Origin: Gemmatimonadota bacterium
GTDB taxonomy: Bacteria; Gemmatimonadota; Gemmatimonadetes; Gemmatimonadales; GWC2-71-9
Assembly: GCA_003221985.1 (NCBI GenBank)
Contig: QHUQ01000161.1
Coordinates: forward strand, 1-11,410
Reading direction: 5' to 3'
Length of the DNA: 11,410 nucleotides
The number at the start of each line of letters is the position of its first letter. Positions within the stretch are counted from its first letter, which is position 1. Shown piece by piece: positions 2,759-11,410 of this stretch. The position numbers and the translations under genes are program-made. The notes under the pieces are model-generated. The model searched no databases, was not told the origin of the DNA, and saw nothing but the letters and a program-made list of their open reading frames with translations.

Positions 2759-4204
2759 TCAGTTGGTCTGCCGCAGCTCGACGCGCCGGTTCTGCGCGCG
2801 ACCGGTTGCCGTCGTGTTCGGCGCGACCGGCTGCGATGCACCATACCCCTTGGCGACCATCCGCTCGGGACCGACGCCCTTGCTCGCCAGATAGGCGCGG
2901 ACGGCATCGGCACGCGCCTGTGACAGACGCAGGTTCGTCGCCGAGGCCCCCGTGTTGTCGGTGTGTCCGCCGATTTCGATCTTGATGTTGGGGTTGGCGA
3001 CGAGTGATGCCGCCACGATGTCGAGAATCGTGTACGAATCAGGCTTCAACGCCGAGCGGCCCGTCTCGAACGTCACGCCGCGAAGGACCACCGGCGTCTT
3101 CGCTTCCGTGAAAAGAATCGGACAGCCGGCGGCATCGACCCGCGTGCCTGCCGCCGTGCTGGGACATTTGTCCTTGGTGTCGTCGATGCCGTCCCCATCG
3201 GTGTCGGAGGCGCGCTGGCACCCCGCCGAATCGACTTCCGTGCGGGGCGGCGTGTTCGGGCACTTGTCGATGCCATCGGGCACGCCGTCGTGATCGCTAT
3301 CGACCGGACAACCGGTCGTGTCGACGGTCGCGCCGGCGGGCGTGTTCGGACATTGGTCGGGACCATCGGGGACGCCATCGCGGTCGGAATCCGTCGGACA
3401 GCCTTGGGCGTCCACCCGTGCGCCCGTCATCGTGCCGGGACACTTGTCGATCCCGTCGTACACGCCATCGGCGTCGGCATCCTTCGGACAGCCGCGCGCG
3501 TCGACTTCCGCTCCTTCGATCGTGTTGGGGCACGCGTCGAGCCCGTTGTAGACCTTGTCGCGGTCGGAGTCGCTGGGACATCCTACCGCATCGACGACCG
3601 CTCCAGCCGGTGTTCCGGGGCACGCGTCCTTCTTGTCCGCGATGCCGTCCTGATCGGCGTCCCGGAATCCGCTCGGCCCGGTGAAGATCGACAGCCCGGC
3701 CGAGCCGACGATGTGTCCCGCCCAGTTACCGCTCGAGAAGCCGGTCTTCGGGGAGTAGATCGCTCGTCCTTCGATCCGAACGGCGACCCGGTCGCCGAAA
3801 AACATCCGGTCCCCAATCCCGCCATGAAAGCCGTTGTCGGTGAAGGTGTAGGAAGGGTGATCACTGAATTCGAGGCGCGTGTAGCCCCCGAGGATATAGA
3901 AGAGATTGTTCTCGTTTCCGACATTGAGGGTAAGGCTGCCGCTCCATAACGCGAGCGTCGCCTTGGCGCCGCCGCTGGCTGGTGCCGGTTGCTGATAGCC
4001 GAATTCGGCTTCTGCCCCGATGGCCCGGCTGAAAAAATACCCCAGACGGCCGCCGCCGCCGATTTGATGGTCCAGACTAAAGGCACGGTCGTAGCGGGTG
4101 AACGACCCGTACGCGCCGATTTCGAACTGATGGGTGTGCTGTCCGATGCAGAGGGCAGGAACGGCAATGAGACAGAGCAGCACCAGCGTCGTCCGCGCGC
4201 GCAT
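2759..4204 (-). CDS. OmpA-family outer-membrane protein with six thrombospondin type-3 repeats (paralog A)
   Basis: This 481-residue protein has the same architecture as its downstream neighbour. It has a signal peptide at 1-21 (MRAR, then a Leu/Val-rich core) and a beta-barrel-like region at about 26-176 (ILGGYTRLEF is close to VLGGYSRLDF in paralog B). Six type-3 repeats span 182-362 and an OmpA C-terminal domain spans about 373-481. The peptidoglycan-binding residues are visible as Asp416 (GHTDNTG) and Arg431 (LSQARA), and the end is NRRVELRQTN. I chose ATG at 4204 because GGGGAGA (4208-4214) stands just upstream and it starts directly at a normal signal peptide. An in-frame GTG at 4228 would add eight residues and has no better SD. 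The paralogs differ mainly in repeat number, so they look like a tandem duplication followed by repeat expansion or loss. The gene follows the kelch lipoprotein by 51 nt with no terminator between, which suggests one operon. Confidence 0.93.
   Translation of the reverse strand: MRARTTLVLLCLIAVPALCIGQHTHQFEIGAYGSFTRYDRAFSLDHQIGGGGRLGYFFSRAIGAEAEFGYQQPAPASGGAKATLALWSGSLTLNVGNENNLFYILGGYTRLEFSDHPSYTFTDNGFHGGIGDRMFFGDRVAVRIEGRAIYSPKTGFSSGNWAGHIVGSAGLSIFTGPSGFRDADQDGIADKKDACPGTPAGAVVDAVGCPSDSDRDKVYNGLDACPNTIEGAEVDARGCPKDADADGVYDGIDKCPGTMTGARVDAQGCPTDSDRDGVPDGPDQCPNTPAGATVDTTGCPVDSDHDGVPDGIDKCPNTPPRTEVDSAGCQRASDTDGDGIDDTKDKCPSTAAGTRVDAAGCPILFTEAKTPVVLRGVTFETGRSALKPDSYTILDIVAASLVANPNIKIEIGGHTDNTGASATNLRLSQARADAVRAYLASKGVGPERMVAKGYGASQPVAPNTTATGRAQNRRVELRQTN
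3119..3661 (-). repeat. Six TSP type-3 coding repeats (paralog A)
   Basis: These are about 90-bp units encoding residues 182-362, each with a DxDxDGxxDxxDxCPxT core and closing VDxxGC. Unit 2 has Lys in place of Gly (DRDKVYNGLD), the same variation as in paralog B units 3 and 6. Unit 5 closes with GCQ instead of GCP. Confidence 0.85.
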
Positions 4205-4255
4205 GTCTCTCCCCGTGGTTAGCGGCACTTCACACTCTAATAATCAGGCTCGCAT

Positions 4256-5743
4256 TCAGAAACCCCAGGCGCAGCTGCGGCGCCCCTGCGTGGCTAAATC
4301 GGCTCCGCCGACCACCAGTCCGCGATGCGTCCCATCCGCCTCATGCCACGCGACCCCGGCGGGGCCAATCAGGGTTCCGGCTGGCTCCGTCAGGCACATC
4401 AAGTCGGCGATGCGATTGGTGCCGACGGGACCGGCGAACGCACTCAAGGAGTCGTCGTTGACCGCTGCCGCGAGCGTCTCCGCCGAGTTGCTGCCTGCAC
4501 CGCCGTACATTCCGCCCACGATCAACACCGTTGAGTCGAGGTCGAGGAGCGCGAACTGCGACCGGCCTTCGGGCAGCAATGCCGGTCCGGCGCCCCACGC
4601 GCCCGTGAAGAATCCCGACAGCAGGCTTACGGCCGCCGTATCGCCCGTCACCAGCCGCTGGGTCCCGGTTCCGACGCCCCCGCCGGGGGGCACGCTGTCG
4701 GCGACTCCCCCGATGGCGATGACCCGAATGTCGCGCGCCAGTCCGGCCCCATACGCCCGCGGCCCGACGAGCGACGGCTGCAGGTACCAGCCGTCTATGT
4801 GCCCGTTCGCCCCGATGCGACCCATGTAGACGGAGCTCTGCGGCTGGCCGAGCTGGTCCGTTCCGCCGATGACGTAAATCCTGCCGTGACGCACGACCCC
4901 GATCGCTCCCGCGCGCGGCGCCGGTAACGGCTCCAGGAACACGAACCGGCCGATCACACTGTCCGCCGTCACGTCGGCGGCGAACACCGAGGACTGCGCG
5001 GTTCCCGACCGGTCGATGCCCCCGATGACGTACAATGCGGTCCCCGGAAATCGGGAATTGTACCGCGTCGCCACCGCGGCGGCGGCGAAGGCACGCGGCG
5101 CCGGAAGCACGCGACTGCGAGCCTGTACCGTCGTGTCGTGCTGGCGTGTCCAGCCGTCGATCGCCCCGGCTCCTCCGGCCGTCGCGCGCGCGACATACAC
5201 GCCGGAGTCCGGCGTCATCAGCGGTGGGTCTGCGCCGCCGGCCGCGTACAGTGTGGTGCGCAGGACGCCGCCTGGCTCGGGAAACTCAGCCGCGGTCAGT
5301 CCAATGCCGGCGGTCGCGCCCGGGTACGGCGCCCGCGCGGTCCACGTCACTGTTCCTGGATCGAAGAATGACCGTGGCAGGACGTGGACCGTCGCAAGGA
5401 TCGTCGTTCCCGCCGCGGTGACAACGGCCAGGGCTTCGGTTCCGGTGGCCGCCGAATCGGGGACGACGGCCGTGATCGTGAACGACGTCCATGCGGAGTC
5501 GGCGACCGCGGCCTCGATCGTGCCGCCGTTGATTTTCGTGAGCAGCACCGTGCCCCGTGCCGTGCCGAAGCCGAGGCCTTCGATCACGAACCGTTCGCCG
5601 CGCGTGAGAATCGGCTCGATGGCGCCGGCGACGTAGTCGATGCGAGCGGCGGGGGTGGGCGAGCCGGAGTCTCCGCTGCAGCTTGCCAGGCTTGTCGCCA
5701 CCAGTACGACCGCCGCCGCGGCGATCGGTTTACGGATGACCAT
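4256..5743 (-). CDS. Lipoprotein with IPT/TIG domain and six-bladed kelch-type propeller
   Basis: This 495-residue protein is probably anchored in the cell envelope. Residues 1-22 are a lipoprotein signal with lipobox LASC (Cys22 is the lipidated residue). It is followed by a Ser/Gly/Pro tether. Residues about 34-122 resemble an IPT/TIG immunoglobulin-like fold ([12 protein letters not shown], then a beta-rich stretch). The rest is kelch-like: six double-glycine turns at 169-170, 241-242, 293-294, 345-346, 410-411 and 479-480, preceded by hydrophobic strands such as LYVIGG, IYVIGG and VLIVGG. Such propellers usually bind proteins or glycans; no catalytic motif is visible. I chose ATG at 5743 because it starts directly at the lipoprotein signal. 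The frame stays open up to 5860, but that extension has Arg/Ser-rich composition and is antisense-like. The start overlaps the end of the upstream signalling gene by 14 nt and has no SD at normal spacing, which suggests translational coupling. Confidence 0.87.
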
Positions 5744-7835
5744 TTCCCCCGCGGATGAAACGCAGTGCCTGCGACAGCTGCTCGGCGAGGGCCGACAATT
5801 CGGCCGCACCATGGGCGAGGTCCTGGATGGCCCGCAGCTGCTCGGCCGCCGCCGCCGCAACGGCCTCCGCTTCTTGACTGGAGCTCTGCGCCCCCGCGCG
5901 TGCCTGCCCGAGCGTTTCGGTGATCTTCGTGGCCAGCTCCGCGCTCTGGCGACCGAACTCGGCGACCTGTTTGCCCGCGCGCGCCGTCTCGGCGGCTGCC
6001 TCGGCGATGCGATTGAGATCTTGTACCCACTCGGCGGAGCTCTGGACGACCTGCCCCAAGTCGCCGCGAATCCGCTCGATCAGCTGCGCGGCGCGGTCCA
6101 AGGCGCGACGGGTGTCCTGCACGGCCTTGCCCACGTTGCGCGCCTCCCGGCCGCTCGCTTCCGCGAGCTTGTGCACCTCATCGGCGACCACCGCGAAGCC
6201 GCGTCCGTGAATTCCCGCCCGCGCCGCTTCGATCGTCGCATTCAGGGCGAGCAGATTCGTCTGGTTGGCCACGAAGCCGATCGTTTCGGAGAACCGTTCG
6301 ACTTGCGTCGCGACGTCACGCAGCCGGCCGACTTCGGCTGCGCTCTCCTCGGTTGTGGCCCCGAGATCGGTCAGTTGCCGCACCGCGTTCTGCGTACCGG
6401 TCCGCACACGGTCGGCCGTCTTTTCCATCTGCGAGCCCGCTTCGCGCGTGCGATCGCCGGCAGCGGCGAGCTCGGCAGCGGTCTCTTTCAATTGTCCGGC
6501 TTCGCGGGCCGCCGTGGTGACGAGGTTCGCCGCCTGGCCCGCGCCGTGGCTGGCGCGCCGCGCCGATGCCGCGACCTCCTCGCTCGAGGCATGGATCTCC
6601 TCGGTCGTCGCGGTCAGCGTCTGCACGTACTGCATCGTCTGATCGGAGGCGCCGGTGACGGGCCGCAGGGAGCCATCGATCGCGACCATCAAGGCGAGCT
6701 GCGGCGCGAGCAGCTCGAGCAGGTCACCGTCCGATTGGCGATACATGGTGGGGTCGGAATGCCGGACACTCCACAGGCCGACGAGCTGCCCCGCATGGTA
6801 GAGGGGCACGAGCATCTCCGAGCCCGGTACCTCGGCGCCGGGGACGACGACCTGATCGTAGGCGAGGCCGTGTGCGACAACCGGGCGGCGCAAGCGCAGT
6901 GCCTCGCCGGTGAGCCCCGCATCGGAATCGAATCGGAACGTCTTCCCCGGCTGGGCGGCGGTGTCGGCCACGAGCTCCATTTGCCGCGTGCGCGCGTCGT
7001 AGCGGGCGAATCCCATTTGCTCCCACGGCACCAGCTGGCGCGTCAGCTCCTGTACGCGCTTGAAGCTCTCGGTCAGCGTCAGCTCGGCGGCGATCACCTG
7101 CGCCAGGCGCTGAATCAGGTGCAGCTCGTCGGCGCGGACGCCGAGACGCAGCACGTACAGACTGCCCGCGGTCCCCATCGCCAATCCGGCGGTGACGAGG
7201 CCGCGGGGGCCTGACGGCAGCGTCGCATGGAGCAGCGCCAGCCACCCGACGGCGAGCACCGCCGAGACGAGATAGACGATGGATTCCCAGCGCAGCGTGA
7301 GCCGCGCGTCCACCCACGCGATCGTCTGCCCCAGTGCGAGCTCGAGGTAAAACGTGCCGTTCACGATGATGGGCAGTATGACGATGGTCAGCGCAACCGC
7401 ACCGACGTTGTCGGCCGAGAGCGCCGCCGCCCCCATCGCGCCACTCACCCGCGCGTACATCAAGCCTACGAAGGTGGACCCCGCGGTGAGATGGGCCGCG
7501 TTGCCGAACGCGGCGCGCAGCGGCAGTCGCCGCAGCACGACGTCGCCGACCAGCATCGCGAACGGCGCGACGATCGCGGCGAATGCCCAGCCGCGATCGA
7601 GAATGGCGAACAGCAGCACCCCGATGACGTAGGACGAGAACCCGTTGCCCGGGAGGGCGATGCCGAAGCGGCGTGAGAGCGCGGCGGCGAGCACGAGCAG
7701 CGCGCCGGCGAGCGGCAGGTTTTCGCCGGCTGGAACGGCGCCGCTGGCGAGGGCGGCAATCCCGGCGCCGAAGCTGACGAGGGCGGCGAGGGAAATCGCG
7801 ACACGGACGAACAACGCCGGCGCTGCCGAGACCAT
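5730..7835 (-). CDS. Membrane-anchored GAF plus methyl-accepting chemotaxis-type signalling protein
   Basis: This 701-residue protein has a hydrophobic N-terminal third (about 8-230) with roughly six or seven membrane segments and no large periplasmic domain. A GAF-like sensor domain follows (about 235-385, including [19 protein letters not shown]). Residues about 400-695 form the long coiled-coil MCP signalling domain. The conserved hairpin tip is clear at 518-556 ([17 protein letters not shown], then [16 protein letters not shown]), the part that contacts CheA and CheW in known receptors. There is no evident HAMP domain, and the C-terminus (GGNGHP) lacks the xWxxF CheR-tethering pentapeptide. 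It probably senses an intracellular or membrane cue and signals to a chemotaxis-like kinase. No che genes are in the window. The ATG at 7835 is the first possible start after an in-frame stop and has no SD. The gene heads the minus-strand run and overlaps the lipoprotein gene by 14 nt. Confidence 0.9.
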
Positions 7836-7840
7836 CGCGC

Positions 7841-7869
7841 AAAGTCGGCGCCGTGGCGCACCATGTCAA
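7841..7869 (-). promoter_or_regulatory. Candidate promoter for the signalling-protein operon
   Basis: On the minus strand a perfect -35 hexamer TTGACA (7869-7864) is followed after 17 nt by GACTTT (7846-7841), a poor -10 match. The predicted start would fall at about the ATG itself, giving a nearly leaderless transcript. This fits the absence of an SD, but the -10 is weak. Confidence 0.25.
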
Positions 7870-7876
7870 GCACGAC

Positions 7877-7882
7877 TATCGT
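7877..7882 (+). promoter_or_regulatory. Candidate -10 element for the SelW-like/pfkA unit
   Basis: TATCGT lies 7 nt before the ATG at 7890, the spacing expected for a leaderless transcript. There is no clear -35 at the usual distance and no SD. Confidence 0.25.
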
Positions 7883-7889
7883 TTACGCC

Positions 7890-8129
7890 ATGACCGTCAC
7901 GATTGAATACTGCGTCATCTGAAACTACGAGCCTCGGGCCACCGGTCTGGCGGCCGAGATCCGCGATGCCTACCCGCATGCCGAAGTGCGGTTAATCCAA
8001 TCCTCAGGCGGCGTCTTTGAAGTAGAGGCCGACGGAAGCCGCGTCTTTTCCAAGAAAGCCCTGAAGCGCCATGCCGAGCCCGGTGAAGTGGTGCGGTTGA
8101 TTCGCGAGAGGGCTGCCGGCACGCGGTGA
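7890..8129 (+). CDS. SelW/Rdx-family selenoprotein; in-frame TGA at codon 11 read as selenocysteine
   Basis: Read through the TGA at 7920-7922, this frame encodes 79 residues beginning MTVTIEYCVI-Sec-NYEPRA. That is the N-terminus of the SelT/SelW/SelH (Rdx) family: beta strand, CxxC or CxxU redox motif (Cys8, Sec11), then a helix. The middle carries the family-like SSGGVFEVEADG and VFSKKA, and the tail is a helix (GEVVRLIRERAAG). Family members are small thioredoxin-fold proteins of about 75-100 residues thought to act in thiol redox chemistry; the substrate is not known here. The only in-frame stop before 8127 is the TGA at the catalytic position. A SECIS-like hairpin follows it, and the ORF ends exactly in a 4-nt overlap with pfkA. 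An in-frame ATG at 7863 would add nine residues not typical of the family. No SD precedes either start. The alternative is a recent pseudogene or a base error (TGC/TGT to TGA), which I think less likely. Confidence 0.85.
7933..7958 (+). promoter_or_regulatory. Bacterial SECIS-like stem-loop in the selenoprotein coding region
   Basis: It begins 10 nt after the TGA. The lower stem CTCGG/CCGAG (7933-7937 with 7954-7958) is followed by a bulged G in the 5' arm, CC/GG, an A-C mismatch, CC/GG, and the apical loop GGUCU (7944-7948). As I recall, the E. coli fdhF SECIS has the same features: a 5'-arm bulge and a GGUCU-type loop whose G-U contacts SelB, at about positions 23-24 from the UGA. Here the G-U falls at 26-27. 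Confidence 0.6.
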
Positions 8130-9193
8130 GACTTGCCATCTCCACCGGCGGCGGCGATGCGCCCGGACTGAATGCCGTCATCCGTGCCGCCGTACTCACG
8201 GCGGTGCATCGCGGGTGGGAGTGCGTCGGCATCAAGCGCGGGTTCGGGAGTCTGCTCGGCGAGGGCGAGCTGATGCCCCTCGGGCCGCAGGAAGTCCGCG
8301 GCATTACCCACCTCGGCGGCACTATCCTCGGGACATCGAATCGCGGTAATCCTCTCAAATGGCGCGTGCAGCGGCCCGACGGCTCCTGGGAGGAGCGCGA
8401 CCGCACGCAGGAGCTCTTCGAATCCGTTCGGGCGAATCGCCTCGATGCCTTGATCGCGATCGGCGGCGAGGGGACGCTCGGCATCGTCCACACGCTGTGG
8501 CAGAAGGGCCTGCCCGTCGTCGGTGTGCCCAAGACGATCGACAACGACGTCGGTGCCACGGTCGCGACGTTCGGATTCGATACCGCGGTCGCCACTGCAA
8601 CGGACGCCATCGACAAAGTGCACTCGACCGCGGAGAGTCACGAGCGGGTGATGGTCGTCGAGGTCATGGGCCGCAACGCGGGTTTCATCGCGCTCCACGC
8701 GGGTCTCGCCGGATCCGCCGACGTGATCCTGATTCCCGAAATCCCGTTCGACATCGACAGGGTCTGCGACAAGATCCGGCGGCGCGAAGCGGAGGGCAGG
8801 CATTTCAGCATTGTGGTGGCCGCGGAGGGTGCGGTCCCAAAAGGCGGCGCGGTGTCGCTGATCGATCCCGCGCACGAACGGCTCGGCGGCATCGCCGACA
8901 AAGTGGCCCACTCGATCGAGCAGATGACGGGGAAAGAGACGCGCTCGCTCGTGTTGGGACATCTGCAGCGGGGCGGCAGCCCCACGACGTTCGATCGGCT
9001 GCTCGCGCTGCGGTTCGGCGCCGCGGCAGTGCGCCTGGTTGCCGAGCGACAGTTCGGCATGATGGTCGCCTTGCAGCCGCCGCGCATCGTTGCCGTCCCC
9101 CTGGCGGAGGCGATCGCGACGCCGCGGCGCGTGCCGCTCGACTCCGACACCATTACGACCGCGAGAGATCTGGGAATCAGCTTCGGAGACTGA
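8126..9193 (+). CDS. pfkA: 6-phosphofructokinase (PFK group III type, predicted ATP-dependent)
   Basis: This 355-residue cytoplasmic enzyme phosphorylates fructose 6-phosphate to fructose 1,6-bisphosphate in glycolysis. Visible motifs in order: STGGGDAPGLNA at 6-17 (nucleotide/phosphate loop), GGEGTLG at 113-119, PKTIDND at 135-141 with catalytic Asp139, MGRNAG at 181-186, AAEGA at 232-236 and LGHLQRGGSP at 278-287 (sugar phosphate binding). Gly116 (E. coli Gly104 position) together with Lys136 (E. coli Gly124 position) is the combination of actinobacterial-type ATP-PFKs. PPi-dependent relatives have Asp at the first site, so ATP use is predicted but not certain. Length and motifs are complete. 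The start is GTG at 8126, giving a GTGA overlap with the stop of the selenoprotein gene. The only SD-like sequence (GAGAGGG, 8106-8112) is 13 nt away, so translation probably depends on the upstream ORF. No clear terminator follows. Confidence 0.95.
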   Translation: MRLAISTGGGDAPGLNAVIRAAVLTAVHRGWECVGIKRGFGSLLGEGELMPLGPQEVRGITHLGGTILGTSNRGNPLKWRVQRPDGSWEERDRTQELFESVRANRLDALIAIGGEGTLGIVHTLWQKGLPVVGVPKTIDNDVGATVATFGFDTAVATATDAIDKVHSTAESHERVMVVEVMGRNAGFIALHAGLAGSADVILIPEIPFDIDRVCDKIRRREAEGRHFSIVVAAEGAVPKGGAVSLIDPAHERLGGIADKVAHSIEQMTGKETRSLVLGHLQRGGSPTTFDRLLALRFGAAAVRLVAERQFGMMVALQPPRIVAVPLAEAIATPRRVPLDSDTITTARDLGISFGD

Positions 9194-9326
9194 GCGGACA
9201 GCTGTATCCACTGACGGACACTCCCCCGGATCCGGCCCTATCTCGCATTACATTGACAGCACATCACTTACGGGCATTGCCGAGCGTGGCACGGCTCTTC
9301 CTTATAGACACGACAAGGAGGCAGCC

Positions 9327-9667: not shown

Positions 9668-11410
9668 GTGCGCATATCCCGCGATCATTTCCTTCCCCCC
9701 GACCCCCAGGCATTTCTCGCTGCCGAACCAGCCACCGGCCGCGTCATCGTCATCGCACCGACTCGAGCTGCCTGTGAGACGATCGAGTTGGCGCTGGGAC
9801 TGAAGTTGGAAACGCTGCTCGAGCGGGAGCACGGAGAGGACATTCGCCGGCTGGCGGGCTCCGGTCAGGGCTTTGGCATCGTGGCGGGCACGGGCACGGG
9901 GAAAACGCTTGCGATCCGGACGATGGCGGAAACCGTCCTGAAGGCGCCGCTCAAGGTGGGCGTGGTGAATCGCGAACGCGAAGCGACGCCCGAGACGCCG
10001 ACCTGGAACGTCGTCATCGTCACGACAGGCATTGCGCGGCGGTGGTTCCAGGATGGTCTGATCACCGCCCAGGACACGCTGGTCGTCGACGAAATCCATC
10101 AGACGTCCGCCGAGATGGAGCTCTGTCTCGCGCTGGGCAAGCGCGCGCGCTGCCGCTTCATCTGGCTCTCGGCGACGGTCGACCCGAGCTTTTACTCGGC
10201 ATACCTCGCCTCCGCCCAAGTCCTGGAGACGCGTGCCTTCGATCCCGCCAAGGCTGCGCAGGTGAACGTTCTGGCGGAGCAGCCGCTCGAGTTCTTGAAC
10301 GATCGTTTCATGAAGAGGGTCACCCGAGAGCGGCGCGGCGTGGCGGTATTCGTGCCCACCCGCGCCGAAGTTGAACAGATCGCGAAGGAGCTCGGCGACC
10401 GCTGGCCCAACCTCGCGACAGCCTTTTACCATGGCGGCGAGCCGATTCGCGTCATTCGTCCTTTTCTTGACGGTTTGGTCAAACGTCCCTTTCTCCTGGC
10501 GATGACGGCGGCGGGCCAATCGGCGCTCAATATCCGCGGTTTGGACACGGTGGTCATTTACGATGCCCGCTACACGAACGTCGTTGAGCGCGGCAAGAAC
10601 GTGCTGACGCGGGCGTACCTGGGTGCCAACGAGATTCTGCAGATGGCGGGTCGGGTCCATGGCCGCGTCCAGCACGGTGAGGTCTACATCCTCAGTGACC
10701 GGGACCTGGTATTCGAAGACCTCCGCCCCACCGCCCCCGAATTCCAGCTGGCCGGCGACGCGGAGCGGGTCGCGATCACATGCGCGGCAATCGGCGTGGA
10801 TGCGGCGGAGCTCGATTTGCCGGTCCCGCTCGATCGGCGGGCCTATCGCGACAGCGTCGAGCTCCTCACGGAACGCGGGCTGATAGAGCACGGCCGTCTA
10901 ACGACTTACGGCCGCGATGTTGAAGCGATGCCGGTGGAACGTCCCTGGGGCGAGCTGCTCTATCACGCGGAGCCACCGCTCGTACCGCTCGTCGCTGTTG
11001 CGTCGAACATCGAGTCGCTGCACCGCATGACGCGCGAGGAGCGGCAACTGGGAGGGTTGATCGTCCCGGGCTCCGATCACATCACGGCCTACAACGTCTA
11101 CGCCGAGGCCGTCAACAAGCATGGGTATCTGGGCGAGGTGTATGGCCTGCCGCGGCATCTCTTTCGCGAAGGCGACATCGAGCGCTGGGCGGAGGAGCGT
11201 GGCGTGCTCGTTAAGGCGATCGAAGACATCGCCCTGGGGACGGCCTCGGTCTATCGCCAACTCGACGTGCCTCTCCCCGCGAAGTTGGCCTATGGAGACC
11301 GGAAGACGCTCGAGCTTTTTGCTGACCTTTTGGCCAAGATCATGCCATTCGACCTCGTGATCGACGAACAGACGGCGGACGGGCGCGAGGCGCGTGTAAG
11401 CCGCAGTTCG
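9668..11410 (+). CDS. DEAH/DEIH-type superfamily 2 ATP-dependent helicase, C-terminus cut by window edge
   Basis: There are 581 open codons from GTG at 9668 to the window end with no stop. Helicase motifs in order: Walker A GTGTGKT at 74-80, DEIH at 141-144, SAT at 168-170, MTAAGQSALNIRG at 279-291 (motif V position) and QMAGRVHGR at 325-333 (motif VI, with the arginine-finger arginines). After the two RecA-like folds comes a winged-helix-like part (LLTERGLIEHGRLTTYGRD), then a ratchet/HA2-like part (SDHITAYNVYAEAVNKHGYL). This order is that of DEAH/RHA-type RNA helicases such as bacterial HrpA and HrpB. It would unwind RNA or remodel ribonucleoprotein at the cost of ATP; the substrate cannot be read from the sequence. 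The 73 residues before Walker A include a VIVIAPTRAACETIELAL segment that I cannot assign. GTG is the first possible start after an in-frame TAG at 9614. No SD is present, and a terminator separates it from the gene before. Confidence 0.88.
   Translation, partial: MRISRDHFLPPDPQAFLAAEPATGRVIVIAPTRAACETIELALGLKLETLLEREHGEDIRRLAGSGQGFGIVAGTGTGKTLAIRTMAETVLKAPLKVGVVNREREATPETPTWNVVIVTTGIARRWFQDGLITAQDTLVVDEIHQTSAEMELCLALGKRARCRFIWLSATVDPSFYSAYLASAQVLETRAFDPAKAAQVNVLAEQPLEFLNDRFMKRVTRERRGVAVFVPTRAEVEQIAKELGDRWPNLATAFYHGGEPIRVIRPFLDGLVKRPFLLAMTAAGQSALNIRGLDTVVIYDARYTNVVERGKNVLTRAYLGANEILQMAGRVHGRVQHGEVYILSDRDLVFEDLRPTAPEFQLAGDAERVAITCAAIGVDAAELDLPVPLDRRAYRDSVELLTERGLIEHGRLTTYGRDVEAMPVERPWGELLYHAEPPLVPLVAVASNIESLHRMTREERQLGGLIVPGSDHITAYNVYAEAVNKHGYLGEVYGLPRHLFREGDIERWAEERGVLVKAIEDIALGTASVYRQLDVPLPAKLAYGDRKTLELFADLLAKIMPFDLVIDEQTADGREARVSRSS

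Follow-up and report, generated by a model that had tools for sequence, protein, structure and literature searches.

Positions 7890 to 8129 on the forward strand of the window, the 11,410-nt stretch of Gemmatimonadota DNA analyzed here, are best explained (probability of about 0.96) as a functional gene for a SelW-like selenoprotein of the Rdx family in which UGA is recoded at codon 11. The reading frame, the family, the conserved UGA, a covarying hairpin, the selenocysteine machinery of relatives, and linkage to the 6-phosphofructokinase gene pfkA were each computed directly. Applying to codon 11 the bacterial mechanism of selenocysteine insertion outlined in PMC13188914, SelB carrying Sec-tRNASec(UCA) would be recruited by a hairpin just downstream of the UGA (7937–7955), selenocysteine would be inserted at that UGA, and a second UGA would terminate the protein. 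The Cys8-x-x-Sec11 pair makes a thiol oxidoreductase likely, and most likely alternates between the selenol/thiol and selenenylsulfide states as a thiol-dependent enzyme of this kind.

A SelW-like reading frame across an in-frame UGA

With TGA translated as a residue, the selW-like gene (7890–8129, +) encodes 79 amino acids beginning MTVTIEYCVI-U-NYEPRA. Its single internal TGA is codon 11 (7920–7922), and its terminal TGA (8127–8129) overlaps the GTG of pfkA at 8126. The sequence-only reading had proposed this complete 79-residue protein, with one in-frame TGA as selenocysteine and an operon-style overlap with pfkA, and the translation agrees in each respect. Its assertion that standard gene calling leaves the interval empty or antisense is borne out under translation table 11: no forward-strand ORF of at least 60 amino acids lies over 7890–8129, and antisense ORFs at 7915–8616 and 7970–9211 overlap it. 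In five near relatives, the annotated proteins are hypothetical proteins of 60 to 65 amino acids that start downstream of the TGA, at an internal MAAEI or MAAEL.

The translated product matched the Pfam Rdx family (PF10262) with E = 2e-20 and a score of 73.2 bits (cut-off 22.6), residues 2 to 73 aligning with positions 1 to 74 of the 74-position profile. The best NCBIfam model was SelTWH_Campy (NF041051; 4.3e-29, 100.6 bits, cut-off 88), and CXXU_selWTH also matched (59.6 bits, cut-off 34.2). Both the Pfam Rdx and the SelTWH_Campy scores exceed their cut-offs, in keeping with the earlier assignment to the SelT/SelW/SelH family. SelTWH_Campy belongs to another phylum, whereas the window gene adjoins pfkA, as in most of the loci examined. 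Near the N terminus lies a CxxU redox motif (7911–7922, +) composed of Cys8 (TGC, 7911–7913), Val, Ile, and Sec11 (TGA, 7920–7922); Cys8 is invariant across 17 aligned sequences. The TGA had been placed at the second-Cys or Sec site of CxxC/CxxU, and alignment confirms this: codon 11 aligns with the second Cys of CxxC in Cys homologues, and in the two printed profile alignments the CxxC of the structures 2fa8 and 3dex aligns with Cys8/Sec11. Profile similarity (E from 2e-12 to 3e-4) extends over the Rdx structures 2fa8, 3dex, 2oka, 2obk, 2ojl, and 2p0g and mammalian SelW (2npb). At position 11 the 2fa8 and 3dex chains carry Cys in place of Sec, and they are longer (105 and 107 residues) than the 79-residue product of the window gene.

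Across the window and nine near relatives, columns variable at codon positions one, two, and three number 1/1/6 before the TGA and 15/8/52 after it, so that 6 of 8 variable columns upstream and 52 of 75 downstream are third positions. Of 71 codons, 40 show synonymous variation alone, and residue changes occur at 20. This pattern of substitution indicates purifying selection on the frame on both sides of the TGA.

SelW-like selenoproteins with CxxU are already known in bacteria, as is the failure of annotation to capture such genes. A table in PMC13188914 lists SELENOW-like CxxU proteins (PF10262) as 'predicted with high confidence', and one in PMC1794560 gives a SelW-like selenoprotein count of 10. 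A passage of PMC1088965 presents SelW-like proteins as the most abundant selenoprotein family of the Sargasso Sea (48 genes); it calls their function unclear, takes CxxU to suggest a redox function, and refers to interaction with glutathione. According to a passage of PMC4607533, annotation had overlooked some SelW genes of Epsilonproteobacteria altogether. The window gene shares PF10262, CxxU, and one Sec per protein with the bacterial SELENOW-like group, but the passages on that group in PMC13188914, PMC1794560, and PMC1088965 mention neither Gemmatimonadota nor pfkA linkage. The main texts of PMC13188914, PMC1794560, PMC12013277, PMC5330540, PMC4561486, and PMC5029168 do not name Gemmatimonadota. 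Titles and the opening lines of abstracts in the open literature yielded no paper on Gemmatimonadota selenoproteins; of the passages retrieved, that in PMC3281104 concerns SelO, that in PMC8318568 is a list of metagenome-assembled genomes (MAGs), and that in PMC8938466 deals broadly with trench MAGs, their transcripts and their sel genes. No paper joining selenoprotein W, phosphofructokinase, and an operon was found in the open literature, and we found there no earlier description of the Gemmatimonadota set or of its linkage to pfkA.

Codon 11 and the selenocysteine machinery in relatives

We reached relatives of the locus through pfkA. The eight best PfkA matches are MAGs of Gemmatimonadetes or Gemmatimonadales, with 85 to 92% identity in the best segment. 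From 261 confirmed relatives, 80 loci were kept, 16 of them Gemmatimonad. A SelW match by tblastn (E ≤ 1e-4, in the stretch around pfkA) was present at 15 of these 16 loci and at none of the 64 others, and all 15 orthologues upstream of pfkA have TGA at codon 11. In a broader sample of 395 genomes of the phylum Gemmatimonadetes (that of genome G002), a profile search with alignment A1 matched selW in 191, about half of the sampled genomes. Routine annotation cuts this selenoprotein gene short, as the proteins of the five near relatives illustrate. Of the 191 genomes, 189 have TGA at codon 11 and 2 have TGC. The underlying alignment tally covers 189 sequences (188 genomes and the window; TGA 187, TGC 2), with G009, G013, and G016 read as loci L009, L013, and L025. 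One TGC form (G141, locus L264) has pfkA downstream; the other (G066, locus L353) has a low score, 43.6 bits, and could represent a different Rdx subfamily.

These counts bear on whether the interval is a pseudogene in decay, or whether a sequencing error has turned a Cys codon into TGA. Such an origin would account for the internal stop, for the absence of the frame from a plain ORF listing, and for annotated proteins in five relatives that begin past the TGA, but it is extremely improbable given that 189 of 191 genomes share the TGA at this codon and that selection is purifying on either side of it. The sequence-only reading had named random frame damage in close relatives as an outcome that would refute it; the relatives carry TGA or, in 2 of 191, Cys (TGC) at this codon, and no random damage.

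We gave the same very low probability to a regulatory stop at codon 11, with the remainder translated solely as a short protein that begins at an internal start and lacks the redox motif. The public proteins of relatives are indeed annotated from MAAEI or MAAEL. However, the codons before the TGA, including Cys8, are conserved, the family motif spans the TGA, and TGC takes its place in the two genomes without machinery matches, in which neither selB (E ≤ 1e-65) nor tRNA-Sec (E ≤ 1e-9) was found. The appearance of TGC where selB and tRNA-Sec are unmatched is the pattern expected for a selenoprotein, and with both TGC forms in such genomes the phylum offers a ready test bed.

Genes for the selenocysteine machinery, which the sequence-only reading had suggested looking for, were sought in relatives: the 16 Gemmatimonadetes genomes reached through pfkA, comprising 15 with selW nearby and the genome of locus L012. 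tRNA-Sec scored above cut-off in 13 of the 16, and ARAGORN assigned the anticodon tca in all 13; there were also seven weaker above-cut-off matches, and the four checked were one tRNA-Ser and three tRNA-Leu. Above-cut-off matches were likewise found for selB in 13 genomes, for selA in 13 (partial in two more, no match in one), and for selD in 15, 12 of which have an in-frame TGA of their own in selD. All four components were above cut-off together in 7 of these 16 MAGs, and at least some were present in every one. The relative G208, whose genome includes a 5.51-Mb contig, has TGA-selW, tRNA-Sec (tca), and selB. The machinery anticipated from the single gene is therefore found in its relatives, and from them we infer that the window's own organism has it and decodes UGA as selenocysteine.

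In the phylum sample, selB was matched in 282 of 395 genomes (E ≤ 1e-65). It accompanies selW in 173; 18 genomes have selW only, 109 selB only, and 95 neither, a co-occurrence with a Fisher p of about 5e-17, uncorrected for kinship. Among the 18 selW-only genomes, 14 have a tRNA-Sec match (E ≤ 1e-9), with anticodon tca in each. In the 109 selB-only genomes (no SelW at E ≤ 1e-8), other selenoproteins presumably use the machinery, one candidate being a selD that itself contains a TGA. Two genomes with TGA-selW, G292 and G369, gave neither a selB (E ≤ 1e-65) nor a tRNA-Sec match (E ≤ 1e-9), which counts against the selenocysteine reading unless their assemblies are incomplete. Genome G015 (locus L015) has TGA-selW, full-length selB, and a TGA-bearing selD, with no selA match and no tRNA-Sec above cut-off; either an assembly gap or an unusual tRNA-Sec would account for it. 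For all three genomes, we assume incomplete assemblies.

The machinery also bears on whether the UGA is read as another amino acid, such as Trp, by suppression or under a changed code. Some metagenome SelW proteins point that way: among 120 listed of 382 homologues, 16 match the N-terminal pattern with the motif intact, and at codon 11 these have Arg in two, Trp in two, and Leu in one. These variants are known as proteins only, and the Trp may reflect gene calls with TGA read as W. We nevertheless regard this reading as highly unlikely. TGA is also the terminal stop of the window gene and of 11 of the 15 orthologous genes, so there is no general reassignment; relatives possess tRNA-Sec(tca), selA, selB, and selD; the two genomes lacking selB and tRNA-Sec matches have TGC; and the hairpin described below satisfies published constraints on bacterial SECIS elements (bSECIS). 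The proteins with Arg (P0002, P0016), Trp (P0007, P0013), and Leu (P0017) all retain Cys8, and they may be either real losses of selenocysteine or gene-caller artefacts.

A conserved hairpin downstream of the UGA

A SECIS-type hairpin, about which the sequence-only reading had made no claim, lies at 7937–7955 (+). Its stem pairs 7937–7944 with 7948–7955 around an apical GUC loop (7945–7947), at a spacing of 22 nt after the UGA. Numbered from the U of the UGA, positions 18–25 pair with 29–36 about a three-base loop (26–28). The window copy has one A·C mismatch (7941/7951), which follows from Thr18 (ACC) and is common to 29 of 181 sequences. Section 5 of PMC13188914 sets out the bSECIS constraints, namely a location 16 to 37 nt after the UGA and a G in the first two loop positions, and comparatively the hairpin family conforms to them, the window copy with one mismatch. 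Shared with the bSECIS consensus are a 3-nt loop with G first, a stem of up to 8 pairs, and a distance of 22 nt from the UGA; the stem mismatch of the window copy is the difference.

For the comparative counts, identical 48-mers were merged (155 loci to 142 sequences; 187 TGA sequences to 181). In the 142 distinct sequences, 94% of stem cells are paired, and sliding one arm by 1 to 3 positions lowers this to 16 to 56%. Synonymous recoding gave 70% (maximum of 300, 72%), and shuffling same-residue codons within columns gave 90.4% (maximum of 500, 91.4%). On the 181 sequences, pairing was 94.0% compared with 90.0% for the within-column shuffle (maximum of 300, 90.8%). The 4-point lead over the within-column shuffle is small, yet no shuffle reached the observed value; this shuffle breaks kinship. 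Changes on both sides occur at pairs 18–36 (GC/AT/CG), 21–33 (CG/GC/TA), and 22–32 (GC/TA). The last of these joins residues 18 and 21, with GCC+GCG (Ala18, Ala21) in 82 sequences and TCC+GAG (Ser18, Glu21) in 7; it is broken by TCC with GCG or GCC in 5. The apical loop opens with GG or GU in 180 of 181 sequences, and the energy of this register is ≤ −7.5 kcal/mol in 139 of 142.

Folding of single sequences gave less. The minimum-energy fold of the window is a different register, and its hairpin was unremarkable when folded alone (z of −0.18 and −1.09). In a sliding fold test of 40 sampled genes, mean energy (−14.5) and mean z (−0.99) both reached their minimum in the segment that starts at codon 15; the signal is modest. 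An Rfam search of 7700–8300 returned no match at E up to 1. From its conservation and covariation across genomes, this hairpin is predicted to be a bacterial SECIS.

Linkage to pfkA and surroundings of the gene

The pfkA gene (8126–9193, +) starts with a GTG that overlaps the selW stop. Its best model is PFK_mixed, against which the product scores 426.9 bits, below the cut-off of 430.55. The protein carries a PKTIDND motif, and its phosphoryl donor may be either ATP or pyrophosphate. The pfkA neighbor recurs widely in the phylum. Of 110 loci identified through SelW without regard to pfkA, 87 carry a downstream, same-strand pfkA, 86 of them with a gap of −10 to 102 nt (the remaining locus, L156, has a nonsensical gap). 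The 110 loci, 30 best and 80 further SelW matches, are not a random sample and exclude the weakest matches. No pfkA was seen in the available stretch at 23 of them, and because it was observed at only 7 of 30 weaker SelW loci, the linkage is not universal.

Because stop and start overlap, selW and pfkA are probably translated from one mRNA; both co-transcription and any effect on PfkA are inferences. Linkage to pfkA gives a metabolic lead on SelW-like proteins. One speculative proposal, to which we assign a low probability, is that the pair acts as a selenium-status switch on glycolysis by translational coupling, with SelW as a possible redox partner of PfkA or its pathway. Since the selW stop overlaps or adjoins the pfkA start, ribosomes would have to pass the UGA and complete selW to feed pfkA, and if the proposal were true, low selenium would make them fall off some 200 nt ahead of pfkA, at codon 11, and yield less PfkA.

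Upstream, a 54-nt stretch (7836–7889) separates selW from a divergent chemotaxis-type gene (5730–7835, −) and is conserved in nine relatives: over the 50 nt before selW, four 10-nt blocks are 87 to 97% identical to the window and one is 62%, whereas blocks from −100 to −61 have only 21 to 31% identity. A TATC(G/C)T element is found 7 nt upstream of the ATG at 7890, and no Shine–Dalgarno sequence is evident ahead of that ATG, which suggests that the mRNA could lack a leader or that the start could be at 7863. There the in-frame codon reads ATG in two sequences, the window and locus L007, and GTG in eight other near relatives; this possible start would add nine residues and move Sec to position 20. 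A scan of 7790–9260 gave no match to the sigma-70 consensus, and the same interval has one terminator-like site, on the reverse strand, compared with a shuffle mean of 0.6.

Elsewhere in the window, which contains no tRNA genes, two neighboring reverse-strand genes (1047–2744 and 2759–4228) encode proteins whose C-terminal domains are OmpA-type and which also contain repeated Asp-rich stretches resembling thrombospondin type 3; they are perhaps a tandem duplication. A DEAD/DEAH-type helicase gene (9668–11410, +) extends past the window end, and its product is only distantly HrpB-like (50 bits against a cut-off of 546).
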